Positions 6,973 to 39,653 of a stretch of DNA of 39,673 bases are shown here, one piece after another. Under the pieces are notes generated by a model. The model had not been told where the DNA came from. It saw nothing but the letters and a program-made list of their open reading frames with translations, and made no database searches. This stretch comes from a virus: the IMG/VR virus record IMGVR_UViG_3300023179_000237, positions 1 to 39,673 of that record. One strand, 5' to 3'. A program made the position numbers and the translations under genes. Each line of letters begins with the position of its first letter. Position 1 is the first letter of the stretch.

Positions 6973-7416
6973 ATGAAAACTTCCACCGTAAAAGTTGATA
7001 ACAAAGGAAACAAGTATTGGTATCTCAACGGCAAACAGCACCGTGAAGATGGACCTGCAGTTGAATATGCCAACGGAAGCAAGGAATGGTGGATCAACGA
7101 CAAACGTCACCGTGAAGATGGACCTGCGGTTGAATATACCGACGGATACAAGAGTTGGTATCTCAACGGCAAACAGCACCGTGAAGATGGACCTGCGGTT
7201 GAATCTGACAACGGAAGCAAGGAATGGTGGATCAACGACAAACGTCACCGTGAAGATGGACCTGCGGTTGAATATACCGACGGAAACAAGTATTGGTATC
7301 TCAACGGCAAACTTGTGACTGAACAGGATGTGCTTAATTCTTCACAAACTATTGAGATTGATGGAGTTAAGTATTCACTTGCACAAATCAAGGCCGCGTT
7401 GAAGAAAGTGGCTTGA
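6973..7416 (+). CDS. REDGPA-repeat protein
   Basis: 147 residues made of five roughly 23-residue repeats, each with HREDGPAVE followed by a Trp/Tyr-rich strand (WYLNGKQ or EWWINDKR). The two unit types alternate. This is the MORN/YwqK-like repeat common in phage hypothetical proteins. A unique C-terminus (TIEIDGVKYSLAQIKAALKK) resembles a short helical cap. The repeats are also nearly identical as DNA, pointing to recent duplication. Function unknown. The TGA stop is within TTGACT. Confidence 0.75.
   Translation: MKTSTVKVDNKGNKYWYLNGKQHREDGPAVEYANGSKEWWINDKRHREDGPAVEYTDGYKSWYLNGKQHREDGPAVESDNGSKEWWINDKRHREDGPAVEYTDGNKYWYLNGKLVTEQDVLNSSQTIEIDGVKYSLAQIKAALKKVA
7033..7317 (+). repeat. 69-nt tandem repeat inside the REDGPA gene
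   Basis: About four copies of a 69-nt unit (core CACCGTGAAGATGGACCTGC), arranged as alternating A and B types so that a 138-nt pair is also repeated. Differences between copies are few, which suggests copy number can change by recombination. Confidence 0.75.
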
Positions 7417-9366: not shown

Positions 9367-9591
9367 ATGAACGCGTGGAACCAGAAAGAGATGGATATGG
9401 ACGATTCTGGTCTTTTGGAGTCGTGTGACTGTTGTAACCGATTGATCCATAATTGGAATTGGATGCACATGAGCTTTCTCGACTTCGATGGAAAAGTTCG
9501 GTGTATTTGGTGCAAATCAGAATTCGTCAAGGAATGTGTGATGAAGAAAGAATTTGATAAAATCGGTTCTTCAGAGATTGACATTTTGTAG
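9367..9591 (+). CDS. small zinc-binding protein
   Basis: 74 residues. CDCCNRLIHNWNWMHMSF with a later CIWC forms a treble-clef or zinc-ribbon style CxxC...CxxC. Promoter TTGACT...TAATGT with CAAACAATG. Stop TAG lies in the spacer of the following promoter, whose TTGACA is inside the last codons. Confidence 0.65.
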   Translation: MNAWNQKEMDMDDSGLLESCDCCNRLIHNWNWMHMSFLDFDGKVRCIWCKSEFVKECVMKKEFDKIGSSEIDIL

Positions 9592-9616
9592 AAGTCAACT
9601 ACTATTTATTAGAGTT

Positions 9617-28997: not shown

Positions 28998-29075
28998 AGT
29001 AAAAAACGATTGACAATCAGCTGCTTTAGTTTAAGATATAAAAACTGTCGGACAACAAATAAAGAAAACAACACA

Positions 29076-29450
29076 ATGAATCGAGTTCACACACTCCGCA
29101 AGATGGGAAACAAGGTTAGCGTCACTCACCGCCGGCGTTATTATGACCCGGTGAATAAGCGATGGACTATGCTTTCACGTTATGAACGGTCGCTGGCACC
29201 CCTCCCCGATTTCGTCACGGCTGACGTTCGTGGGGGTGAGACGGAAGTTTCTCTCCGAACTAAGAGCGGCAAGGAGTTGACTTCGGTGGCAAAGTGTTCC
29301 AAGAAGGACATTTACGTTCGTTCCGTTGGCCTCAACACCGCATTGGATGGCTTGCTTTTTGAGGCAACCAAGCCCGTCGAGTGTTTCGTTGTCAACAATA
29401 CTGGAGTTTTCCCTCAATTGAATTTGGCTCCCGAGACTGCCAAACAGTAA
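29076..29450 (+). CDS. hypothetical basic protein
   Basis: 124 residues, RVHTLRKMGNKVSVTHRRRY, beta-rich afterwards. Here the promoter (TTGACA...TAAGAT at about 29009-29036) is about 40 nt from ATG, so this mRNA has a real 5' leader, unlike most genes here. Last rightward gene before the pseudoknot array, which could lie in its 3' UTR. It does not resemble a ToxN-type endoribonuclease. Confidence 0.65.
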   Translation: MNRVHTLRKMGNKVSVTHRRRYYDPVNKRWTMLSRYERSLAPLPDFVTADVRGGETEVSLRTKSGKELTSVAKCSKKDIYVRSVGLNTALDGLLFEATKPVECFVVNNTGVFPQLNLAPETAKQ

Positions 29451-29514
29451 AGTCTCGGATGGTGTTTAGGTGATCCATTCAAAATCATCATATATTAGAG
29501 AGTAATAGATAAAA

Positions 29515-29645
29515 ATAGAAAGTTTGAGAGAATCTTCAACAAAATCTCTCTGGTAGGTGCAAATGGTTTCGAGTTTTGACCAAGAAAAAACTCGTGGTGG
29601 AGGTAGAACGGTTTGAAGTTTAACCGAGAAAAAACTTCTGGCGGG
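29515..29645 (+). ncRNA. tandem pseudoknot array, three 44-nt units
   Basis: Three units end at 29550, 29594 and 29638 (exact 44-nt period), each followed by TGG. Order in each unit: strand a, strand b, a-complement, A-rich linker, b-complement, which is an H-type pseudoknot. a/a' is GTT/AAC, GGT/ACC and GGTT/AACC; b/b' is GAGAGA/TCTCTC, CGAGTTTT/AAAACTCG and GAAGTTT/AAACTTC. Stems change in a compensating way while the plan stays. Type III antitoxin RNAs (ToxI, CptI) have this design. No toxin gene is adjacent. Confidence 0.6.
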
Positions 29646-29650
29646 CGCAG

Positions 29651-29683
29651 GAAAGGAGCAGCAGCAATGTTGCTCCTTTCCAA
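29651..29683 (+). other. strong hairpin after the pseudoknot array
   Basis: GGAAAGGAGCA pairs with TGCTCCTTTCC (11 bp). It has no T tract on either strand and sits directly after unit 3, so it may protect or define the 3' end of the array RNA. Confidence 0.55.
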
Positions 29684-29695
29684 TGTCCTACGGAC

Positions 29696-29724
29696 ACAAA
29701 AAAACCGACTTCAAAAGAGTCGGT
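29696..29724 (-). terminator. terminator of the leftward tRNA cluster
   Basis: On the minus strand ACCGACT pairs with AGTCGGT around a CTTTTGA loop, then a run of seven T. It lies immediately after the last tRNA of the cluster. Confidence 0.85.
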
Positions 29725-29725
29725 C

Positions 29726-29812
29726 TGGAGCCCATGGCAGGAGTCGAACCTGCAGTTGGATTTCTCCTCCCGTTTACGAAACGGGGCCGTTACCAGTTAC
29801 GGTTACATGGGC
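29726..29812 (-). tRNA. tRNA-Thr(CGU) with extended variable arm
   Basis: Acceptor GCCCATG/CATGGGC, T-arm GCAGG-TTCGACT-CCTGC, CCA encoded, loop TTCGTAA. The 15-nt variable region forms GGA-GAAA-TCC, a tetraloop-capped mini stem, so the body is class II-like although the anticodon is for Thr (ACG). Confidence 0.85.
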
Positions 29813-29819
29813 ATTATAC

Positions 29820-29893
29820 GGAGCCTCCTCAGAGAATTGAACTCTGTCATCAGACTTACCAAGTCCGCAGGCTACCATTAACATCAAGGAGGC
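29820..29893 (-). tRNA. tRNA-Thr(GGU)
   Basis: Acceptor GCCTCCT/AGGAGGC, anticodon stem CGGAC/GTCTG with loop TTGGTAA, T-loop TTCAATT. Ends CCG, not CCA, so the tail must be completed by an enzyme. Confidence 0.85.
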
Positions 29894-29897
29894 ATCA

Positions 29898-29972
29898 CTA
29901 CAACGAGAGGGCTCGAACCTCTGACTCCGGCAATTATCGGGCCGGCAATGTTACCACTACACCATCGTCGTA
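29898..29972 (-). tRNA. tRNA, possibly Ile(GAU), enlarged anticodon loop
   Basis: Acceptor TACGACG/CGTTGTA and T-arm AGAGG-TTCGAGC-CCTCT are clear. The anticodon stem CCGGC/GCCGG closes a 9-nt loop CCGATAATT, two bases too long, so the anticodon (GAU by position of the central bases) is uncertain. No CCA. Confidence 0.65.
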
Positions 29973-30078
29973 GAGAAATTAATGTGGATTTCACCGGCTT
30001 CAACGGCCGTTTGTTCCCATCTGGGGGTACCTCCCAGATAATGGTCTATCACATTCTTGTGAACTGAGTTACTACATT
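29973..30078 (-). other. inter-tRNA spacer with hairpins
   Basis: 106-nt spacer, longer than most in the cluster. It contains ATCTGGG/CCCAGAT (30019-30039) and CGGC/GCCG pairs. No gene or promoter was recognised. Confidence 0.35.
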
Positions 30079-30156
30079 TGGAGATAAATGTGTGGAATCG
30101 AACCACTCTAACGACTCGAAACGTCGTCATGCGACCATTACATTATTATATTTACC
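30079..30156 (-). tRNA. tRNA-Glu(UUC)
   Basis: Acceptor GGTAAAT/ATTTATC, discriminator T, CCA encoded, anticodon stem ACGAC/GTCGT with loop GTTTCGA. The T-stem carries an extra pair and an A-A mismatch. Confidence 0.8.
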
Positions 30157-30178
30157 AACTTTCATCTCTTTCACAAAC

Positions 30179-30254
30179 TGGTAGGCCTGTAAGGATTTGA
30201 ACCTTAATTTTTGCGTTCGAAGCGCAACGTGATAGCCAGTTTCACTACAAGCCC
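30179..30254 (-). tRNA. tRNA-Arg(UCG)
   Basis: Acceptor GGGCTTG/CAGGCCT, CCA encoded, anticodon stem TTGCG/CGCAA with loop CTTCGAA, T-loop TTCAAAT. Confidence 0.9.
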
Positions 30255-30288
30255 ATTCTAAATTTATTAATTCCAAAACGTGTGTATA

Positions 30289-30438
30289 TCACGCACGGCA
30301 TCGTAGGTGACTCGGATAACACCCAAACATGAACTCATTGCCGTTTTCTTCAACTTGACGAGCAAACTCAGACACCGAACCAAAGATTTCCTCAATCAAA
30401 GATTCGTTTCTACAATCTCCCAATTTGTCCATGTTCAT
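30289..30438 (-). CDS. small acidic protein
   Basis: 49 residues, MNMDKLGDCRNESLIEEIFG, then FARQVEENGNEFMFGCYP. ATG one base after the TGA of the gene upstream, suggesting coupling. Helical, acidic; no family recognised. Confidence 0.5.
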   Translation of the reverse strand: MNMDKLGDCRNESLIEEIFGSVSEFARQVEENGNEFMFGCYPSHLRCRA

Positions 30439-30439
30439 A

Positions 30440-30617
30440 TCAATTTCCTCCCATCAATTGTGCGAGTTCGTATTGCCAAATGTGTTCCACTTGTTTAGTT
30501 TTTTGTGGTGCACCTTTATCGTTCACCCAGTGATGTGTCCAAACAATCATACTTTGAGTTCCTCCATCAATTTTTGGAGTGCCCTTAAAATACTCTTCGT
30601 TATTTCCAGTAATCATT
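30440..30617 (-). pseudogene. small gene broken by a one-base frameshift
   Basis: A promoter (TTGACT...TAGAAT) ends nine bases before ATG at 30617, but the frame stops after ten codons (MITGNKRRVF). From the GAA six codons in, the neighbouring frame is open to TGA at 30440 and reads EEYFKGTPKIDGG...IVWTHHWVNDKG...MGGN. Removing one T of TTT near 30600-30602 joins them into about 58 residues. Either a mutation, a sequencing error or programmed frameshifting. Confidence 0.45.
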
Positions 30618-30731
30618 AGGGAAACATTCTACCATGACTTTAAATAAAGTCAATACCTCGTTCTGAATCTGCCAATCGTTTCTCCTTCGATTCAGACAAA
30701 CATCTCGAAAACGTTAAAAGGATGTCCGGGG

Positions 30732-30807
30732 TGGTTGCAGCCGTGGGAGTCGAACCCACCTATTCTGTCTTATGAGGACAGCGCCTGATCCGCTCAGCCA
30801 GACTGCA
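30732..30807 (-). tRNA. tRNA-Met(CAU)
   Basis: Acceptor TGCAGTC/GGCTGCA, discriminator A, CCA encoded, anticodon stem CTGTC/GACAG with loop CTCATAA, T-loop TTCGACT. Elongator, initiator or lysidine-modified Ile2 cannot be told apart by eye; the 1-72 pair T-A argues against initiator. Confidence 0.85.
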
Positions 30808-30813
30808 ATTTGT

Positions 30814-31014
30814 TTAATCCGTAAGCAATTGGTAAAGAAGACCTTTACCGTAACCGATACACCGTCCAGCGAATTCATTCACTTGTCGGTTATGAGCGGT
30901 GTAAGTTCCAACGATAGGTCCAGAGAACTTGCGAGCAACAGCGTCGCCGTTCGGTCTGGTTTCGATGAATCCGATGATGAGGTTATTTCTATCTCTAATA
31001 GTTTCTGTATCCAT
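30814..31014 (-). CDS. hypothetical protein
   Basis: 66 residues, MDTETIRDRNNLIIGFIETR, then DAVARKFSGPIVGTYTAHNR; resembles a small beta-rich phage protein. Start at 31014, ten bases after TATTAT of a TTGACA promoter; the earlier M at 31044 lies in the promoter. Ends just before tRNA-Met. Confidence 0.6.
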   Translation of the reverse strand: MDTETIRDRNNLIIGFIETRPNGDAVARKFSGPIVGTYTAHNRQVNEFAGRCIGYGKGLLYQLLTD

Positions 31015-31445
31015 ATGTTCAAACATAATACCCCATCGTTTCAATTATGTCAATGGAGATTTGAAGAAATGTTACGGGAAGACTTAATCGTGAAGATGCT
31101 TCTTCTTGGCCACCGTATTAGCCAAATTGACCGATGGGATTTCACAGGAGACTAACACACTATGAATAAATGTCAGCTTTGTATTTCCGTTTTCGTTCTT
31201 TCCATACAAATGTATGGAATCTATCCATCGGTTAAATTGATCTGGGATTTCACAGGCATCAAATCGGTATATTTGCTTCGCAACCGGGACAATCTACTCC
31301 GATTGATTTATAAACCTAGTCCGGTAATCATCCCACTTAGGAGAGGGAATTTCCCGTCTATACAGACAAAATTGTTTTGAAAGAACTTATTGAACCGACA
31401 ACCAATTATTTCATACTTTGGTCGTCGAGTCAACTATTTATTTAT
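31015..31445. other. 430-nt stretch without a convincing gene
   Basis: Holds the promoter for 31014, a 14-nt direct repeat TGGGATTTCACAGG (31135 and 31243, 108 nt apart) and the hairpin TCCATAC/GTATGGA (31201-31218). Short rightward frames share the peptide WDFTG at both repeats but lack promoters. Possibly debris around the HNH insertion at 31446. Confidence 0.4.
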
Positions 31446-31943
31446 ATGAAAAAGACAATTAAAGATTTCATCACCTGTAAAGGATCTAATAAGTATGGTA
31501 GCATCAGATGTCATGCCAGAAAAGTGACCTCAACCAGACAACAAAAGTGTAAAAAATGTGAATATGATAAGCACGTAGAAACGTGTCATATCAAACCGAT
31601 TTGTTTATTCGATGAATCCACTCCCATTGAGATTGTAAATGCTGATAGTAACCTGTTATTGTTATGTCCAAATTGTCATTGGGAACACGACGATATTTTA
31701 AGTTCTAAAATCAGAAAATTAGAAACTACGTGCAAGTGTGGGAACGTAAAATATCGTTATTCTAAAATATGCGATTTATGCGAACGTGAACGTAGAAAGA
31801 AAGAAACTCCACGAAAAGTAATAAATCGTCCATCTAAAGAAGAATTGGATGTGATGGCATCAACTATGCCAATGACATCCATCGGTAAGAAATATGGTGT
31901 ATCGGATAATTGTATTCGTAAGTGGATTAAGTCCTACGTTTAA
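31446..31943 (+). CDS. HNH endonuclease with C-terminal helix-turn-helix
   Basis: 165 residues from ATG 31446 (frame open from 31377). CKKCEYDKHVETCHIKPI and LLLLCPNCHWEHDDI form the HNH/zinc core; a second Cys pair CKCGN; the C-terminal TSIGKKYGVSDNCIRKWI is a helix-turn-helix also seen in the HNH at 34837. Rightward in a leftward tRNA cluster and AT-rich: a mobile insertion next to a tRNA-like gene. Confidence 0.8.
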   Translation: MKKTIKDFITCKGSNKYGSIRCHARKVTSTRQQKCKKCEYDKHVETCHIKPICLFDESTPIEIVNADSNLLLLCPNCHWEHDDILSSKIRKLETTCKCGNVKYRYSKICDLCERERRKKETPRKVINRPSKEELDVMASTMPMTSIGKKYGVSDNCIRKWIKSYV

Positions 31944-31947
31944 TGTT

Positions 31948-32022
31948 GGCCCGACCAGCACTCGTCCTGGCTCTCTTCCGCTTATGAGGCGGGCGCTTAT
32001 ACAAAGATTTAAGCTTCGGGCC
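31948..32022 (-). tRNA. degenerate tRNA-like gene, CAU loop
   Basis: Acceptor GGCCCGA/TCGGGCC is perfect. The anticodon stem CCGC/GCGG holds CTCATAA. The D-loop lacks GG and the T-loop reads GACGAGT, so tertiary contacts would be lost. Ends ACA. It abuts the HNH gene end (31943) and could be its target or a damaged tRNA. Confidence 0.45.
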
Positions 32023-32028
32023 AATTAG

Positions 32029-32238
32029 TTAATTGCTACCAAACCGAAAAGACGTGACTCCGCAATCACCATCATGGAAACCCAATTTATCCAAAGCAAC
32101 TTGATCTTCCACAGACAATTCACTCCACTGAACACCATTGACAATGAGTTCATCATGTTCACAGTGGGTAGGATACTTGTCTTCACCCAAACCATTGTAT
32201 TTGGCAAGAATCGTGAGGGCTTTGATTAGGTCGTTCAT
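32029..32238 (-). CDS. hypothetical protein
   Basis: 69 residues, NDLIKALTILAKYNGLGEDK, with HCEHDELIVNGVQWSELSVE. Acidic, helical. Last gene of a four-gene leftward unit from 32900. Confidence 0.6.
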   Translation of the reverse strand: MNDLIKALTILAKYNGLGEDKYPTHCEHDELIVNGVQWSELSVEDQVALDKLGFHDGDCGVTSFRFGSN

Positions 32239-32241
32239 AAC

Positions 32242-32421
32242 TTAAATCTTTTCCAAAGCTGCTAACACGGTTTCAGCAAGATGGGTTTGTCCATCATCGT
32301 AACCAATTTGGTAAGCATCGTCAACATTACCACCACAGTCGTCGTTGACCATGAAATCTTCCGAATCACACCGAGCGGGATTCTTCGTGAGCTTTTTAAG
32401 CATTTCTACAAGTTCGTTCAT
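32242..32421 (-). CDS. hypothetical protein
   Basis: 59 residues, MNELVEMLKKLTKNPARCDS; acidic, helical end (THLAETVLAALEKI). Start chosen four bases after the previous stop; the frame from 32451 overlaps that gene. Confidence 0.6.
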   Translation of the reverse strand: MNELVEMLKKLTKNPARCDSEDFMVNDDCGGNVDDAYQIGYDDGQTHLAETVLAALEKI

Positions 32422-32425
32422 AAAA

Positions 32426-32665
32426 TTAAAGAACTTCCACCGTAATTTCACTTGGAGGGGAAACTCGTTTCAATAGAGTGATCTGTGCCACGTAATACAC
32501 TTCACGTTTGCCGTGGTCGAGATAGAACGTTTTAATATCGTCGAGCGCCGCCTTCTCATTCACATAGAAATTGGCCAACGTGACGTCTTCTGTGCTCTCG
32601 CCTTCCGCGTCAACCAAATTCTCTTCGGAATTGAAAATGACGTAGGGGAAATTAAGTTTCTTCAT
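32426..32665 (-). CDS. hypothetical protein
   Basis: 79 residues, MKKLNFPYVIFNSEENLVDA, beta-alpha with YYVAQITLLKRVSPPSEITV. Own promoter with TTGTAA...TAAGAT overlapping the end of the upstream gene; ATG eight bases after the -10 box. Confidence 0.6.
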   Translation of the reverse strand: MKKLNFPYVIFNSEENLVDAEGESTEDVTLANFYVNEKAALDDIKTFYLDHGKREVYYVAQITLLKRVSPPSEITVEVL

Positions 32666-32690
32666 AGGAGACAATCTTACACCACTTCTT

Positions 32691-32900
32691 TTAAATTACA
32701 ACACCTTTTTTCTTCAAAGTTCGTTTGAAAACAGTGTTGTCACTGAGGGAATTCCATTCCGACGGACGACTTAAAACATGACGGATGGCGTGAAGGGCGT
32801 CAAAGTTAATAAGGCTTTTCCCTTTGCCCTTCCCAGGCAACATATCAACATTGTCAAGGATTTTGTTGATGGTTTCAACGAGTTCAGAAGGATGTTTCAT
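32691..32900 (-). CDS. hypothetical protein
   Basis: 69 residues, MKHPSELVETINKILDNVDM, basic middle (GKGKGKSLINFDALHAIRH). Promoter TTGACA...TAAAGT, ATG eight bases later; the frame from 32918 includes it. The next promoter overlaps its stop. Confidence 0.6.
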   Translation of the reverse strand: MKHPSELVETINKILDNVDMLPGKGKGKSLINFDALHAIRHVLSRPSEWNSLSDNTVFKRTLKKKGVVI

Positions 32901-32947
32901 GTAAGACAACTTTACCACTTTTTATCGAATTGTCAACCGCTTTCTGT

Positions 32948-33035
32948 GGTCCCATCCAGAATCGAACTGGCCAGTACCCCAATCTAGGGATTATACGTGT
33001 TATAAGCACGCCCATGCACCTTACATCTTGGGACC
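32948..33035 (-). tRNA. tRNA with UAU anticodon and long variable arm
   Basis: Acceptor GGTCCCA/TGGGACC, anticodon stem GCGTG/CACGT with loop CTTATAA, T-loop TTCGATT. A variable region of about 23 nt includes ATCCC/GGGGT, a class II arm, yet the anticodon is for Ile (ATA). Ends CAG, not CCA. Confidence 0.8.
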
Positions 33036-33042
33036 AATAAAT

Positions 33043-33285
33043 TTACACCAAAATTCTAAACGTGAAGTCTTTTGTTGGACACGCACCGCTGGTCAACCAA
33101 ACCTTTCGGTCTTCCCAATCACCGACATCTCCACTCAACCTTGCAAGTATAGACTCAATTTGGGGTTTGTCAACACCGACGGTATTAACGTAAATCTTTC
33201 CTCCACGGTTCCTCACAGACACCTTGAATGGCGTCGGACAATCCACGAGTCTAACGATTTCTTTTCTAAGTTCTTTCGTTGTCAT
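33043..33285 (-). CDS. hypothetical protein
   Basis: 80 residues, TTKELRKEIVRLVDCPTPFK, beta-alpha pattern with VDKPQIESILARLSGD. Starts nine bases after the previous stop. No family is recognised. Confidence 0.6.
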   Translation of the reverse strand: MTTKELRKEIVRLVDCPTPFKVSVRNRGGKIYVNTVGVDKPQIESILARLSGDVGDWEDRKVWLTSGACPTKDFTFRILV

Positions 33286-33294
33286 AAAATAATT

Positions 33295-33486
33295 TCAATC
33301 CATCGAGATGCCACTGAATTCCGTCCATGAAACATTTATCTGTGGAGAAGTTTTCCCACCGAATCTGGCACGACTTTCATCTGAGAGATATGACCTCAAA
33401 GATCTACGGAGATTAGCTTCATCGTAAACATACGTCACGTTAGAATCTCGACGTATTACTTTAGTGTCGTCAAATTTCTTCCACAT
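33295..33486 (-). CDS. hypothetical protein, start abuts a tRNA
   Basis: 63 residues, MWKKFDDTKVIRRDSNVTYV. ATG is four bases after the CCA of tRNA-Ile(GAU), so 3' processing of the tRNA would create a near-leaderless mRNA. No family is recognised. Confidence 0.6.
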   Translation of the reverse strand: MWKKFDDTKVIRRDSNVTYVYDEANLRRSLRSYLSDESRARFGGKTSPQINVSWTEFSGISMD

Positions 33487-33490
33487 AAAT

Positions 33491-33565
33491 TGGTTGTCAT
33501 AGAGAATTTTGAAATCTCGACCCTTCCCTTATCAAGAGAACGCTCTGCCTCTGAGCTATATGACA
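33491..33565 (-). tRNA. tRNA-Ile(GAU)
   Basis: Acceptor TGTCATA/TATGACA, discriminator A, CCA encoded, D-arm GCTC/GAGC, anticodon stem TTCTC/GGGAA with loop TTGATAA. One T-T mismatch in the T-stem. Confidence 0.85.
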
Positions 33566-33690
33566 ATGAAAACCATGACGGAGAGTACTGTCGTAGTGGG
33601 CTACGAAGCCTATAGGTAATCGTGGTGTTGGTAACAAACCGACATTGATCCACGCCTACGTTGGTTATCTCAACCGTCAAAGAACAAAAA

Positions 33691-33766
33691 TGGTGCGCCC
33701 GGCGAGACTCGAACTCGCGACCAAGTGGTTAAAAGCCACCTGCTCTACCAACTGAGCTACAAGCGC
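33691..33766 (-). tRNA. tRNA-Lys(UUU)
   Basis: Acceptor GCGCTTG/CGGGCGC, CCA encoded, anticodon stem GGTGG/CCACT with loop CTTTTAA. Canonical throughout. The spacer to tRNA-Ile holds a coding-like frame from a TTG at 33680 that would run into that tRNA; not called. Confidence 0.9.
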
Positions 33767-33772
33767 ATTATA

Positions 33773-33952
33773 CTATCGACTCATTCTTAAACCGGCATCA
33801 AATCCGTGTTTGTATCCATCAATGTAGTGATTCTGTTCACCGATACTCCAATCCGAAGGAAAGTTGAATTCAGTCTTCTCTCGGAGATTACTTGAAGCAT
33901 CTGAGTAACCGTCTTCTTCACCGAACTGCCACGCTTCAGTAGTTGATTTCAT
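33773..33952 (-). CDS. hypothetical protein
   Basis: 59 residues, MKSTTEAWQFGEEDGYSDAS, acidic then GYKHGFDAGLRMSR. Start at 33952, eight bases after TAAAGT of a TTGACT promoter. Ends six bases before tRNA-Lys. Confidence 0.6.
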   Translation of the reverse strand: MKSTTEAWQFGEEDGYSDASSNLREKTEFNFPSDWSIGEQNHYIDGYKHGFDAGLRMSR

Positions 33953-33984
33953 GTAGGACAACTTTACCACCGAACGATAAAAAG

Positions 33985-34176
33985 TCAATTAAGAAATTCG
34001 TTTATCGGAACGGTGAAACACACGTCACCATCTTCAATGTCGTGGAGGTTACATTCGGTGTCAATTTCGTCAAGAGTCACCAACTTGTCTCCTGGCCAAC
34101 GTCGGTCATCGGAATAAATGTGCAACGATCCGAGGGAGATTTCAACGTGTAGGTATTTTCTTTTCATACTTGGCAT
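33985..34176 (-). CDS. hypothetical protein, start abuts a tRNA
   Basis: 63 residues, MPSMKRKYLHVEISLGSLHI, then acidic. ATG is three bases (ATT) after the CCA of tRNA-Cys; a second Met three codons on is possible. Its TGA stop is in TTGACT of the promoter for 33952. Confidence 0.6.
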   Translation of the reverse strand: MPSMKRKYLHVEISLGSLHIYSDDRRWPGDKLVTLDEIDTECNLHDIEDGDVCFTVPINEFLN

Positions 34177-34179
34177 AAT

Positions 34180-34255
34180 TGGAGCACCGTGTAGGAGTCG
34201 AACCTACTTGAAACTCTTTTGCAGAGAGTTGCCTTGCCGTCCAGACCCACGATGC
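34180..34255 (-). tRNA. tRNA-Cys(GCA)
   Basis: Acceptor GCATCGT/ACGGTGC, CCA encoded, anticodon stem ACTCT/AGAGT with loop CTGCAAA. A promoter TTGACA...TAATCT lies just upstream (about 34280-34310). Confidence 0.9.
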
Positions 34256-34313
34256 TTGAAGGGTTTGTAAATTCATCTCAAATAAGATTACCACACTTAT
34301 TTTAATTGTCAAG

Positions 34314-34387
34314 TGGCAGTCCCTGCTGGAGTCGAACCAACTTAGCCCGTTTCAGAGACGGGAACACGGCCGTTATGTTAAGGGACT
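34314..34387 (-). tRNA. tRNA-Gln(CUG)
   Basis: Acceptor AGTCCCT/AGGGACT, G73 as usual for Gln, CCA encoded, anticodon stem CCCGT/ACGGG with loop CTCTGAA. Confidence 0.9.
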
Positions 34388-34388
34388 A

Positions 34389-34462
34389 TGGCTGGGACGG
34401 AGGGACTTGAACCCCCAATCTTCTCGTTCAAAGCGAGGTGCAATACATTATGCTACATCCCA
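34389..34462 (-). tRNA. tRNA-Gln(UUG)
   Basis: Acceptor TGGGATG/CGTCCCA with G73 and CCA, anticodon stem CTCG/CGAG with loop CTTTGAA. One base from the next tRNA; the two Gln genes form a dicistron. Confidence 0.9.
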
Positions 34463-34474
34463 ATTGGAAAATGT

Positions 34475-34572
34475 GGCAGAGTGCTAGTAATTTACACCAC
34501 ACCCGATAAATTCTTCGGATTCGACATCCTTTATCATTGGGTGTCCGGACTTTAAACCCCGGAACTGCTGCC
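34475..34572. ncRNA. 98-nt rod-like folded element between tRNAs
   Basis: Closed by GGCAG/CTGCC. Inside lie TCCGG/CCGGA and a long arm ACACCC/GGGTGT continuing as GATAAA/TTTATC and GGAT/ATCC. About 25 pairs in 98 nt at a tRNA position. No anticodon or T-arm. Orientation cannot be told, but the surrounding tRNAs are on the minus strand. Confidence 0.5.
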
Positions 34573-34577
34573 TTAAA

Positions 34578-34654
34578 TGGTGGGCCGGATGGGACTCGAA
34601 CCCATATCGCAACGCTTAAGAGGCGCGCATCTAATCCAGTTGAACTACCGACCC
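34578..34654 (-). tRNA. tRNA-Lys(CUU)
   Basis: Acceptor GGGTCGG/CCGGCCC, A73, CCA encoded, anticodon loop CTCTTAA, T-loop TTCGAGT. Confidence 0.9.
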
Positions 34655-34658
34655 AAAA

Positions 34659-34733
34659 TGGTGCACCCACCCGGACTCGAACCGAGATCGTCTGATTAAA
34701 AGTCAGACAGTCTTCCAATTGACTTATGAGTGC
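34659..34733 (-). tRNA. tRNA-Lys(UUU), second copy
   Basis: Acceptor GCACTCA/TGGGTGC, A73, CCA encoded, anticodon stem TCTGA/TCAGA with loop CTTTTAA. Body differs from the copy at 33691, so it is not a recent duplicate. Confidence 0.9.
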
Positions 34734-34742
34734 AAAATCGAC

Positions 34743-34824
34743 TGGAGCCAGTGACAGGATTTGAACCTGCGATGATTTTCCCGTTTACAAAACGGATGCT
34801 TTCAACCTCTCAGCTCACACTGGC
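34743..34824 (-). tRNA. tRNA-Thr(UGU)
   Basis: Acceptor GCCAGTG/CACTGGC, T73, CCA encoded, anticodon stem TCCGT/ACGGG with loop TTTGTAA. Variable region of nine bases, longer than class I standard but without a clear stem. It duplicates the anticodon of the class II tRNA at 26645. Confidence 0.85.
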
Positions 34825-34836
34825 GACTAACTTAAA

Positions 34837-35535
34837 TTATTGGTTGATGATGTTAAATTTGACACACCACTTTTTAATTGTATTTCCACTTACATTATAC
34901 ATTCTACCTATCTCTGAAAATGGTTTCTTTTCTTGAATAAGTCTTCTTAACTCATCCGAAGAAATTTTCAACTTTTTTGGTTGGCTACCTAACCAACATT
35001 TTTTACATTGTTTTCCTGCCCCCGAGTATTCAGCTGAACATTTCGGACAAATGGGCGATTTAATCTTTACATTTCTTCCTGAAAAAGTAGAAGTTTGACT
35101 GTTACAGTTGGGGCACAGAAATCTGAGGTTTTCGATTCGATGATCGTTATTTATTCCATTTATGTGGTCCAAAATTAGAACTAACCGTTCACCGTTCCAA
35201 TTATTAGTCACTCCACATTTACATTTATATGGAATCAAATTCTGTTTTATGATTCTGTTTTTAACATTCCCTCTACACACAGTTGAATTTTCAACGAATA
35301 TGTCACCGTTTTCTTTTTTTGATTGTCTCCCATTCTTTCTAAAGTTGGCCACTCTTAATTCGGTCAACAAGGTTAAATCTACAGACTCTTTCTTTATTCT
35401 GTCACTTAGAGTTTTATAGTTACCTGCAACCGGAACAAGTTCCAATTTCAAAAGAACTTCTTTTAAAGAACAACACGAATTCACTAAACTTTGAAATTCA
35501 TCACTTTTTAATTTCCATATTTTGCTTGTTTTCAT
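34837..35535 (-). CDS. HNH endonuclease with helix-turn-helix ends
   Basis: 232 residues from MKTSKIWKLKSDEFQ. N-terminal DNA-binding-like helix, then CKCGVTNNWNGE, LILDHINGINNDHRIENLRF and LCPNCNSQT (HNH with zinc ligands), CPKCSAEY...CKKC, and a C-terminal PFSEIGRMYNVSGNTIKKW helix-turn-helix. Free-standing phage homing-type nuclease sitting between tRNA-Thr and tRNA-His. AT-rich relative to neighbours. Confidence 0.85.
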   Translation of the reverse strand: MKTSKIWKLKSDEFQSLVNSCCSLKEVLLKLELVPVAGNYKTLSDRIKKESVDLTLLTELRVANFRKNGRQSKKENGDIFVENSTVCRGNVKNRIIKQNLIPYKCKCGVTNNWNGERLVLILDHINGINNDHRIENLRFLCPNCNSQTSTFSGRNVKIKSPICPKCSAEYSGAGKQCKKCWLGSQPKKLKISSDELRRLIQEKKPFSEIGRMYNVSGNTIKKWCVKFNIINQ

Positions 35536-35598
35536 AAATGTCATTTAACTCATGCACTTAATAAGTAAGGGTTAAGATAACAAAACAATAAATTTAAT

Positions 35599-35677
35599 TG
35601 GGGCGTTCAACGGGAGTCGAACCCGCATCTGCTAAATTCACAATTTAGGGACTTGAACCAATTAGTCTATGAACACC
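35599..35677 (-). tRNA. tRNA-His(GUG)
   Basis: Anticodon stem CTAAA/TTTAG with loop TTGTGAA. Acceptor GTGTTCA/TGAACGC plus an encoded G-1 opposite C73, the histidine identity element. CCA encoded. Confidence 0.9.
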
Positions 35678-35688
35678 ATTCTAACCGA

Positions 35689-35768
35689 CGGTGCTCATGG
35701 TAGGAGTCGAACCTACATCATATCCAATTATACGCTAACTGCTTCGTAGGCAGTGCTAATACATGAGC
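35689..35768 (-). tRNA. tRNA-Arg(ACG)-like without a D-arm
   Basis: Acceptor GCTCATG/CATGAGC, A73, T-arm GTAGG-TTCGACT-CCTAC and anticodon stem ACTGC/GCAGT with loop CTACGAA are clear. Only seven bases separate acceptor and anticodon stem, so no D-arm can form, while the variable region is 21 nt. Ends CCG. Confidence 0.65.
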
Positions 35769-35839
35769 AATTTAAATCGGACGGTTTTTCATGGCGTTCC
35801 ACCATCTGCTTATCCGTCATGCAGTTTCCATTATGAATA

Positions 35840-35913
35840 TGGTTCCGTGGGCAGGAATCGAACCCGCATACTTCGGGTAACAACCGAATGTAATACCATT
35901 ATACGACCAGGGA
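35840..35913 (-). tRNA. tRNA-Asn(GUU)
   Basis: Anticodon stem TTCGG/CCGAA with loop TTGTTAC, CCA encoded. Acceptor TCCCTGG/CCACGGA has one C-C mismatch at the fourth pair. Confidence 0.85.
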
Positions 35914-35927
35914 ATGAAATCTAACTT

Positions 35928-36002
35928 TGGCTCCCACCCCAGGACTCGAACCTGGAACCACCTGATTAACAGTCAAGCGCTCTACCATTGAGCTAGACGG
36001 GA
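35928..36002 (-). tRNA. tRNA-Asn(GUU), second copy
   Basis: Acceptor TCCCGTC/GGTGGGA, G73, CCA encoded, D-arm GCTC/GAGC, loop CTGTTAA. Sequence unlike the copy at 35840. Confidence 0.9.
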
Positions 36003-36016
36003 ATCACTAACACCAA

Positions 36017-36096
36017 CTGTAGCCCCGCTCGGAGTCGAACCGAGTTCTCCGGATTGAGAATCCAGAATCCTATATCCATTCGTAGACGACGAGGCC
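36017..36096 (-). tRNA. tRNA-Glu(CUC)
   Basis: Acceptor GGCCTCG/CGGGGCT, anticodon stem CTGGA/TCCGG with loop TTCTCAA, T-loop TTCGACT. Ends CAG instead of CCA. Confidence 0.85.
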
Positions 36097-36105
36097 ATTC
36101 AACAA

Positions 36106-36178
36106 AGGTAGTTCCACTCAGACTTGAACTGAGACTTCACTCTAATCAGGAGCGAGGGCTACATTACCGCATGGAACC
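36106..36178 (-). tRNA. tRNA-Ile(GAU), second copy
   Basis: Acceptor GGTTCCA/TGGAACT, anticodon stem CGCTC/GAGTG with loop CTGATTA, T-loop TTCAAGT. Ends CCT, no encoded CCA. Confidence 0.85.
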
Positions 36179-36188
36179 ATTTAACTAA

Positions 36189-36263
36189 AGGCGGTGTATA
36201 GCGGAATCGAACCGCCCTAGTTCCATAGACAGTGGAACCGATGACCCAGCCTCTTCATACACC
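36189..36263 (-). tRNA. tRNA-Asp(GUC)
   Basis: Acceptor GGTGTAT/ATACACC with G73, anticodon stem TTCCA/TGGAA with loop CTGTCTA. Ends CCT. Confidence 0.9.
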
Positions 36264-36266
36264 AAT

Positions 36267-36342
36267 TGGCCCGGATTACTCGAATCGAACGAGTTCCTAC
36301 TGCTCTTCAGGCAGCCGCGCAAACCATCTACGCCAAATCCGG
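36267..36342 (-). tRNA. tRNA-Phe(GAA)
   Basis: Acceptor CCGGATT/AATCCGG, CCA encoded, anticodon stem CTGC/GCAG with loop CTGAAGA. The non-standard C1-G72 pair and G73 differ from most bacterial tRNA-Phe. Confidence 0.85.
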
Positions 36343-36480
36343 ATTGAGATTTTTGACCTTTCGTTGGTGGCCTCAAGCTTCCGCTTAAGACTGGCGACTT
36401 CTGTTCACTTGAACCGCCTCTACGGTCTGACATCTTTTTAGGGGAGACAGACTAAAAACCCCGAAGTTTTTCCAAACTTC
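36343..36480 (-). ncRNA. structured leader before tRNA-Phe
   Basis: Minus strand, from right: GAAGTTT/AAACTTC followed by GGGGTTTTT (terminator-like, about 36463-36480), then GGCG/CGCC enclosing GTTC/GAAC, then CTTAAGC-GGAA-GCTTGAG with a tetraloop and GGCCACCA just before tRNA-Phe. An 82-codon frame (36185-36433) overlaps two tRNAs and is rejected. Confidence 0.4.
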
Positions 36481-36494
36481 AAAAACAAAAAACC

Positions 36495-36525
36495 GTCAAC
36501 TACTTTCGGAGGTTGACGGTGACAT
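36495..36525 (-). terminator. Rho-independent terminator
   Basis: On the minus strand CCGTCAAC pairs with GTTGACGG (8 bp), followed by TTTTTTG. Ends the short transcript starting near 36605. Confidence 0.85.
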
Positions 36526-36545
36526 TCGGATCTAAACACGAAATA

Positions 36546-36602
36546 TCAGCCGTTGCCTCCTTGGCAATCGCGCTTAATAAAATTGTGTTTGGTTGTCATC
36601 AT
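36546..36602 (-). CDS. 18-codon leaderless mini-ORF
   Basis: MMTTKHNFIKRDCQGGNG. A perfect promoter (TTGACA, 16 nt, TATACT) ends ten bases before ATG, and a terminator follows 20 nt after the stop. The same frame is open upstream to a GTG at 36704 (52 residues, NEELGVDLGSHFTLKRKKKR), so a longer protein is possible. Confidence 0.4.
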   Translation of the reverse strand: MMTTKHNFIKRDCQGGNG

Positions 36603-36612
36603 TACGTTAATA

Positions 36613-36640
36613 AGTATATTCGATTTCTCGAAAGTGTCAA
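36613..36640 (-). promoter_or_regulatory. near-perfect sigma70 promoter
   Basis: TTGACA (36640-36635), 16-nt spacer, TATACT (36618-36613) on the minus strand. It drives only the mini-ORF before a terminator about 80 nt later. Confidence 0.8.
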
Positions 36641-36724
36641 ATCTTTTCTTTTTTCTTTTTAAAGTGAAGTGTGAACCTAAATCCACACCTAGCTCCTCGT
36701 TCACATGGAACGTGAGTTAAAATT

Positions 36725-36814
36725 CCGTAGCGGAGGGAGGAGTCGAACCCACCCATAGAGACTTTCGTCGCCTGCGTTATGAGCGCAGTTAGCATCCCAC
36801 GGCTTGTCTCCGCA
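36725..36814 (-). tRNA. tRNA with CAU anticodon and long variable arm
   Basis: Acceptor GCGGAG/CTCCGC, anticodon stem CTGCG/CGCAG with loop CTCATAA, T-loop TTCGACT. The variable region (about 18 nt) has GAC-GAAA-GTC, a tetraloop-capped arm. Class II body with a Met-type anticodon. Ends CGG. Confidence 0.8.
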
Positions 36815-36833
36815 ATTATTGTTCTTACGAACT

Positions 36834-36911
36834 TGGTAGTGCTGAGGGGAGTCGAACCCGCCGTTCTCCGGTTGAAAGCCGGTAGTATTAAAACCGTTAT
36901 ACGACAGCACC
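36834..36911 (-). tRNA. tRNA-Glu(UUC), second copy
   Basis: Acceptor GGTGCTG/CAGCACT, CCA encoded, anticodon stem CCGG/CCGG with loop CTTTCAA. A promoter TTGACG...TAGAGT lies upstream (about 36940-36970). Confidence 0.85.
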
Positions 36912-36979
36912 ATTAATCTACAAAGATCAACCGACTTCACTTACTCTACACCACTTTTTCTATTCGTCAACTAAATTTT

Positions 36980-37089
36980 TGGGATGAATGGGTGGATTTG
37001 AACCACCGGCCTAGGCATCCATCGTCACTTTTGCGGCGTCTTTTACCATCATAGACGTGCCTTGATCTACCAACTGAACTACATCCATC
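36980..37089 (-). tRNA. tRNA with a 40-nt anticodon loop (insert of about 33 nt)
   Basis: Acceptor ATGGATG/CATTCAT, G-1/C73 and encoded CCA, D-arm GTTCAGTTGGTAGATC, anticodon stem AGGCA/TGCCT, 5-nt variable loop and T-arm GGTGG-TTCAAAT-CCACC are all canonical. The anticodon loop is 40 nt and contains CGTCT/AGACG. It starts directly after the CCA of tRNA-Gly. The decoded amino acid cannot be read; G-1/C73 would suit His. Confidence 0.7.
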
Positions 37090-37163
37090 TGGAGCGGGAT
37101 GAGGGAATCGAACCCTCACGTCGAGTTTGGAAAACTCACAGGCTACCACTACATCAATCCCGC
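37090..37163 (-). tRNA. tRNA-Gly(UCC)
   Basis: Acceptor GCGGGAT/ATCCCGC, CCA encoded, anticodon stem GAGT/ACTC with loop TTTCCAA, T-loop TTCGATT. Confidence 0.9.
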
Positions 37164-37166
37164 ATT

Positions 37167-37243
37167 TGGTACTGTCGGTTGGAGTCGAACCAACCTAATA
37201 CTGTTTAGAAGACAGTTGCCTAATCCAATCGAGCCACGACAGC
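37167..37243 (-). tRNA. tRNA-Arg(UCU)
   Basis: Acceptor GCTGTCG/CGACAGT, CCA encoded, anticodon stem ACTGT/ACAGT with loop CTTCTAA. First gene of the leftward tRNA operon. Confidence 0.9.
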
Positions 37244-39513: not shown

Positions 39514-39653
39514 TCAATTTGTGAAAAATCCCTCATTGCATCCCCCGTTGCATCCCCCGTTGCCTCCATCGTTGCCTCCCTCGTTGCCTCCCTCGTTGCA
39601 GCCCTCGTTGCAGCCCACGTTGCATTCTCCGCTTTATTTAAATTTGAAGTCAT
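39510..39653 (-). CDS. tetrapeptide-repeat protein
   Basis: 47 residues: MTSNLNKAENATWAATRAAT then six more four-residue units ending with REAT, MEAT, GDAT and similar. The repeat A-T-x-x probably forms a regular helix or coil. The second frame of the same DNA encodes C-N-x-G repeats, but the AT frame has the proper start and its TGA lies in the next promoter's TTGACA. Confidence 0.55.
   Translation of the reverse strand: MTSNLNKAENATWAATRAATREATREATMEATGDATGDAMRDFSQID
39535..39630. repeat. 12-nt tandem repeat, about eight copies
   Basis: Units of the type GTTGCMTCCCYC on the plus strand, in phase with the minus-strand coding frame (12 nt = 4 codons). Copies differ by one to three bases. 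Such arrays change copy number readily by slippage. Confidence 0.85.

Follow-up and report, generated by a model that had tools for sequence, protein, structure and literature searches.

The window, a stretch of 39,673 nucleotides of viral DNA (IMG/VR record IMGVR_UViG_3300023179_000237), contains a tandem array of RNA pseudoknots that is, judging from its sequence, a distant and divergent wcaG-type RNA. Its units combine a first stem (S1), a UUU loop, a second stem (S2), an A-rich loop, and a TGG tail. By its position, from a stop codon to a terminator, the array forms the 3' UTR of a small gene. We propose that it acts at the end of the transcript, where it would guard the 3' terminus of the mRNA by blocking nucleases mechanically, and we put the probability of this reading at roughly 55%.

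A preliminary description of this DNA placed three tandem H-type pseudoknots at 29515-29645, with the 3' strands of S2 ending at 29550, 29594, and 29638, each followed by TGG, at a spacing of 44 nt. These positions are correct on re-reading, and units 2 and 3 (29564-29641) are classic H-type pseudoknots. Unit 2 (29564-29599, plus strand) is of the internal type, with the tail TGGTG. Its S1 is TGGTT/GACCA (29564-29568 with 29578-29582) or, in the register of the wcaG model, TGG/CCA with a UUU loop, and its S2 is CGAGTTTT/AAAACTCG (29570-29577 with 29587-29594). Unit 3 (29609-29646, plus strand) is of the terminal type, with the tail TGGCGGGC; it has CGGTT/AACCG as S1 (29609-29613 with 29622-29626) and GAAGTTT/AAACTTC as S2 (29615-29621 with 29632-29638). 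Unit 1 (29520-29553, plus strand) is where the earlier account does not hold up as well. Its S1 is weak, with only 3 base pairs (AAG/CTT or GTT/AAC) and the loop UUU, and it was missed by R1, a covariance model of a single unit (see below). Its S2 (GAGAGA/TCTCTC) has 6 base pairs and is followed by TGG, and the unit aligns with the single unit of a related contig, L001.

We also scanned the window for pseudoknots de novo, with thresholds of at least 5 for S1 and at least 7 for S2, and with 150 Markov shuffles as the control. The plus strand contains four strong pseudoknots, at 29423-29458, 29564-29594, and 29609-29638, and an isolated one at 32836. The shuffled sequences had 0.67 pseudoknots per strand, and none of the 150 had a pair within 100 nt or a group of three within 250 nt. 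Since no shuffle clusters pseudoknots as the window does, the array is not a chance occurrence. The first of these hits (pseudoknot 0; 29423-29458, plus strand) was overlooked in the preliminary description. It is formed by TTTGG/CCAAA interleaved with CCGAGAC/GTCTCGG, followed by ATGG, and has a counterpart in L001 (TGGCT/AGCCA and CGAGAC/GTCTCG, then TTGG). The stop codon (TAA, 29448-29450) of the gene at 29076-29450 lies inside the third loop of pseudoknot 0. This places the beginning of the array at the stop codon, about 90 nt upstream of the reported start.

The gene that ends within pseudoknot 0 (29076-29450, plus strand) encodes a protein of 124 amino acids. It has relatives in three contigs, L001 (IMGVR_UViG_3300007735_000628), L002, and L136, with 79%, 69%, and 50% identity, respectively. 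A consensus scan identified a sigma70-like promoter upstream of the gene (TTGACA-16-TAAGAT, 29010-29037, plus strand; 10/12 matches), and a TTGAC(A/G) box also precedes the gene in all three contigs. The protein has no match of any weight among PHROGs, Pfam families, or PDB folds (the best fold match was no better than E = 0.2), and its structure was predicted with moderate confidence (mean pLDDT of 68.5).

Beyond unit 3, the plus strand folds into a very stable hairpin with 14-bp arms and a loop of 4 (29650-29681), which has a GC-rich counterpart in L001, L002, and L136. The region 29640-29735 has a folding energy of -47.8 kcal/mol (z = -7.4). A terminator scan of the minus strand then identified a hairpin at 29702-29726 that is common to the plus-strand mRNA and to a convergent minus-strand tRNA operon; in L002 and L136, the terminator has U-rich ends on both strands. 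Thus the order in the window is promoter, small gene, array, hairpin, bidirectional terminator, and convergent tRNA genes on the minus strand. Since the genes that come next are minus-strand tRNAs, the array cannot be a leader or 5' UTR in the window. At the same place, L001, L002, and L136 have one stem, TGGTGGAGG, the GC-rich hairpin, and the terminator. The stem sequences differ, and there is one unit in each of these contigs vs. three in the window.

The array had been taken for a stand-alone RNA. We rejected a stand-alone gene with its own promoter: there is no promoter-like site at 29450-29515. We also rejected protein coding across the array, as the open reading frames there are short and run antisense through the tRNAs.

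The region 29726-37243 includes about 24 minus-strand tRNA genes with HNH endonuclease genes interspersed (34837-35544 and others). One of the tRNAs (29897-29973) was called as Tyr(ATA), and the homologous gene in L002 (5713-5789) was called as Pyl(CTA); the Rfam scores are weak or absent, so this may be an odd or misread tRNA. Elsewhere, the window contains a 69-nt tandem repeat with 4.6 copies that overlaps an open reading frame (6998-7312) and, close to the end of the contig, 8 copies of the 12-nt repeat ATCCCTCGTTGC (39528-39625). The DNA of the window does not match any phage record in the collection. In L001, the tRNA array contains an orphan abiF RNA (RF03085, 40.8 bits; 9570-9606, minus strand), and no Abi_2 (AbiF/AbiD-type) protein was found alongside it on the contig. 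The tRNA array of S-CREM1 also carries an orphan antitoxin-type RNA of the abiF family. The abiF RNA of L001 is a candidate antitoxin mimic that would act against a host Abi system.

The relationship to wcaG RNA comes from a permissive search of Rfam with 301 bases around the array. The sole clear match was to wcaG (RF01761), at 29562-29652 on the plus strand, which starts at unit 2, ends at unit 3, and covers the full length of the model (positions 1-98; 38.0 bits, E = 7.8e-6). The curated gathering score is 42 bits, and because our match is under this cut-off, we describe the array as wcaG-like and as a divergent relative, and not as a certified member of the family. The wcaG RNA of S-SCSM1, which was annotated by the authors of that genome, likewise scores below the cut-off (37.2 bits). 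Read by eye, the Rfam consensus comprises two H-type pseudoknots with UGG after each; their stems are UUUAG/CUAAA with CUUGCUU/AAGCAAG, and CCUGG/CCAGU with CUUGCUU/AAGAGCAAG. The window also has two tandem H-type pseudoknots across the length of the model. The unit sequences differ from those of the cyanophages: the structure is kept and the sequence is not.

To collect other wcaG RNAs, we used BLAST with the wcaG consensus, which identified 112 phage records, mostly from Synechococcus phages, and a DNA pattern search of IMG/VR, which identified at least 120 stretches. The pattern demands a terminal GTGGCG, so this sample represents canonical wcaG. The earlier claim that the stems differ but their partners change to match was borne out in the family. 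Across 95 non-redundant sites, S1 of unit 2, which is not constrained by the pattern, is paired in 98.2% of cells, vs. 71.7% if partners are shuffled between sites. We also aligned 20 single units, two of them from the window. In this alignment, G-UUU and TGG are invariant, covariation is 0.834 vs. 0.272 in shuffles, and sliding the partner destroys the pairing. The 96.5% of cells that are paired is partly so by construction, as most of the aligned units were chosen for complementarity, and we give more weight to the test of S1 in unit 2. The covariance model R1 was built from this alignment, and it scores its own training units from the window at 34.4 bits (unit 2, E = 2.3e-7) and 31.4 bits (unit 3, E = 1.7e-6). 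L136, which is outside of the training set, scores 18.5 bits (E = 0.009).

A strict wcaG pattern had one match in 84,980 cellular genomes. This is PACT01000001.1, which is filed as a Crocinitomicaceae metagenome-assembled genome, and in which the wcaG array is followed by a gene start, as at the phage loci. We rejected it as evidence for a bacterial host of wcaG, as it looks like a misbinned fragment of a cyanophage. We also scanned viral contigs for a pattern modeled on the units of the window, with no match. Each of the eight phage genomes that we searched has essentially one array. Six loci (L013, L034, L069, L095, L098, and L118) have extra wcaG-like units apart from or beyond the two-unit element, such as the one at 2624-2663 in L118, so some phages may have longer arrays or several of them.

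We also found a single wcaG-type unit in the mycobacteriophage MrMagoo (locus 1657-2034), immediately downstream of the tmRNA gene's 3' end; it is not annotated in the record. A GOLLD RNA lies further along the same tRNA array. This location, along with the GTGGCG tail, raised the question of whether the units are tmRNA pseudoknots. We rejected this identity, as the tmRNA model stops just before the unit and the window has no match to tmRNA.

The position of wcaG RNAs suggests, from sequence signals, that most sites in the family are at transcript ends. An intrinsic terminator is predicted within the next 120 nt at 94 of 100 distinct IMG/VR sites, vs. 13 of 100 for shuffled sequences; in the same contigs, terminators follow 20% of other ORF ends and 16% of random positions. 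Nearly all of these terminators start 12-25 nt after the end of wcaG (median 17 nt). The upstream ORF has its stop codon between -1 and 168 nt before unit 2, in clusters, with ORFs called by length only. Of 19 isolate genomes, 15 have wcaG followed by a terminator or, within 200 nt, by a tRNA; the wcaG RNAs of the isolates were confirmed with Rfam, except for the author-annotated one in S-SCSM1. In many of the isolates, wcaG comes after a small cyanophage ORF (gp205-207 or T4-GC 249/250 type). The genes after it vary and include an epimerase, a glycosyltransferase, a high-light gene, and tRNAs (Gly, Pro, Asn, and Met).

The terminators themselves hold another signal. Their loops usually contain TTGACA or TTGCAT, with TATAAT after the U-tract. 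At 73 of 86 sites, there is a -35 element inside the terminator hairpin and a -10 element (TATAAT) 16-18 nt further on, vs. 29 of 86 if the following sequence is shuffled. Since a promoter overlaps the terminator, the start of the downstream gene's own transcript lies beyond wcaG.

These results bear on the original proposal for wcaG RNA, which was described in 2010 in potential 5' UTRs of marine cyanophages and was listed as a riboswitch candidate (Weinberg 2010, PMC2864571); this reading has been repeated in later papers on cyanophages (PMC9602691, PMC9964418). A riboswitch or attenuator would lie in the 5' UTR of the downstream gene, and ligand binding to the pseudoknots would decide whether the terminator forms. 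An aptamer followed by a terminator is the classic layout for this, and sugar-nucleotide and high-light genes are over-represented downstream (Weinberg 2010, PMC2864571), with sugar-nucleotide enzymes in 48 of 90 cases in our data. However, besides the separate promoter of the downstream gene, promoter-like sites are not enriched upstream of wcaG (17 of 95 sites, vs. 19 for shuffled sequences). No antiterminator or attenuator is visible, as the complementarity of the terminator arm to the array is 7.06 vs. 7.09 nt. tRNA genes are often next, and the window has its downstream genes on the opposite strand. Also, apart from the misbinned phage contig, our search at the stringency used did not find wcaG in cellular genomes. 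A riboswitch, which the preliminary description had named as an alternative, fits poorly, and we consider it quite unlikely.

Another possibility is that the array is a processive antitermination element that lets the polymerase pass the terminator just downstream. The short distance to a strong terminator at nearly all sites would suit such a role, but the downstream genes have their own promoters, and read-through in the window would yield only antisense RNA to the tRNA operon. This seems very unlikely to us.

The preliminary description favored an antitoxin-like RNA of a type III toxin-antitoxin system. We rejected a type III antitoxin: there is no match to ToxI, no repeat identity, and no toxI-terminator-toxN operon layout, and the array belongs to a gene as its 3' UTR. 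Specifically, the Rfam model of ToxI (RF02519) does not match at the array, and its best score in the window is 11.7 bits, elsewhere. Tandem Repeats Finder reports no near-identical repeats at the array. The neighbors of the array are tRNAs and a small gene that is conserved without a toxin family. We also searched for PF13958 (ToxN-type toxins) and found no match in the window, but there was none in the control genomes either. The resemblance of the array to antitoxin RNAs is limited to the tandem pseudoknots.

More broadly, a trans-acting RNA might be cut from the 3' UTR and might serve, for instance, as a decoy for a host nuclease or as a mimic of a type III antitoxin. wcaG arrays are found only in phages, with essentially one per genome, and the array abuts the 3' end of the RNA, which would make a 3'-UTR-derived small RNA easy to release. 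Orphan abiF RNAs are also present in S-CREM1 and L001, and a giant phage is known to target the RNA degradosome (PMC4980113). But besides the lack of a ToxI match, we did not see a separate promoter, wcaG is coupled to a stop codon and to a terminator or tRNA at most sites, and the units in the window keep the structure but not the sequence of the cyanophage units. We consider a trans-acting RNA unlikely.

Among these readings, a 3' UTR that blocks exonucleases, which had been mentioned as an alternative, fits best. The array lies between the stop codon, inside pseudoknot 0, and the hairpin and terminator signals after unit 3, which is where an exonuclease-resistant 3' UTR element would be expected. 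The pseudoknots, together with the terminator hairpin, would block the entry of 3'-to-5' exonucleases into the coding region, and this block would stabilize the mRNA and give it a longer lifetime. Some pseudoknots, such as that of telomerase RNA, are stabilized by U-A-U triples between a U-rich loop 1 and the adjacent A-U pairs of stem 2. By analogy, the array may adopt this geometry, as its U-rich first loop is beside A-U pairs at the junction side of S2. Also, the evopreQ1 pseudoknot at the 3' end of pegRNAs prevents the degradation of the 3' extension (PMC9456398).

Our main doubts about a nuclease block stem from the single array per genome, which one would not expect if the role were general stabilization, and from the sugar-nucleotide genes downstream, whose enrichment is not explained by a pure 3'-UTR role. 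It also counts against this reading that a terminator hairpin alone already hinders 3' exonucleases, and that at a few sites (L148, L118, L064, and L072) the array leads directly into an ORF, with neither a terminator nor a tRNA in between. In the literature, we found nothing relevant on tandem pseudoknots in phages or on exonuclease-resistant RNAs in bacteria. A doubtful but broader idea is that wcaG RNAs are phage-wide 3'-UTR arrays that both stop exonucleases and release a stable trans-acting small RNA, which might, for instance, occupy a host ribonuclease or an RNA-binding toxin. If so, this class would be the counterpart in DNA phages of the exonuclease-resistant RNAs of RNA viruses.

wcaG has been an unexplained riboswitch candidate since 2010, and the window provides a natural experiment, since here this fold is compatible with a 3' UTR and nothing else. 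Because the position at transcript ends is shared by the family, experiments should shift from ligand screening to RNA decay and the mapping of 3' ends. Our results also extend the wcaG family to a phage that is unrelated to known records and to mycobacteriophages. If the knots do stop exonucleases, DNA phages would offer in them a compact natural stabilizer of 3' ends.

It remains to compare the array with known systems. The type III antitoxin RNAs (ToxI, CptI, and TenpI) are also tandem H-type pseudoknots of about 35-45 nt; in contrast, the units in the window are not near-identical, and they are on the 3' end of an unrelated gene. In the plant RNA viruses of the tobamovirus group, the 3' UTR contains an upstream pseudoknot domain followed by a tRNA-like structure. 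In arrangement, this domain resembles the array: it has consecutive pseudoknots between the stop codon and the 3' end of the RNA. The aptamer of the preQ1-I riboswitch is a small H-type pseudoknot with an A-rich tail. It had no match in the Rfam scan of the array, and the array is not in a leader, but both are small H-type pseudoknots, and a derivative of this aptamer guards the 3' ends of RNAs to which it is appended (PMC9456398). Unlike wcaG itself, the array lacks a GC hairpin between the two matching units, has one or two further units before them, is in a purely 3'-UTR setting instead of the published potential 5' UTR, and comes from a phage with no close relative among the phage records in the collection. 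The array and wcaG share G-UUU at loop 1, an A-rich loop 3, a TGG tail after each S2, and the same order of tails, with the internal TGGTG followed by the terminal TGGCG.
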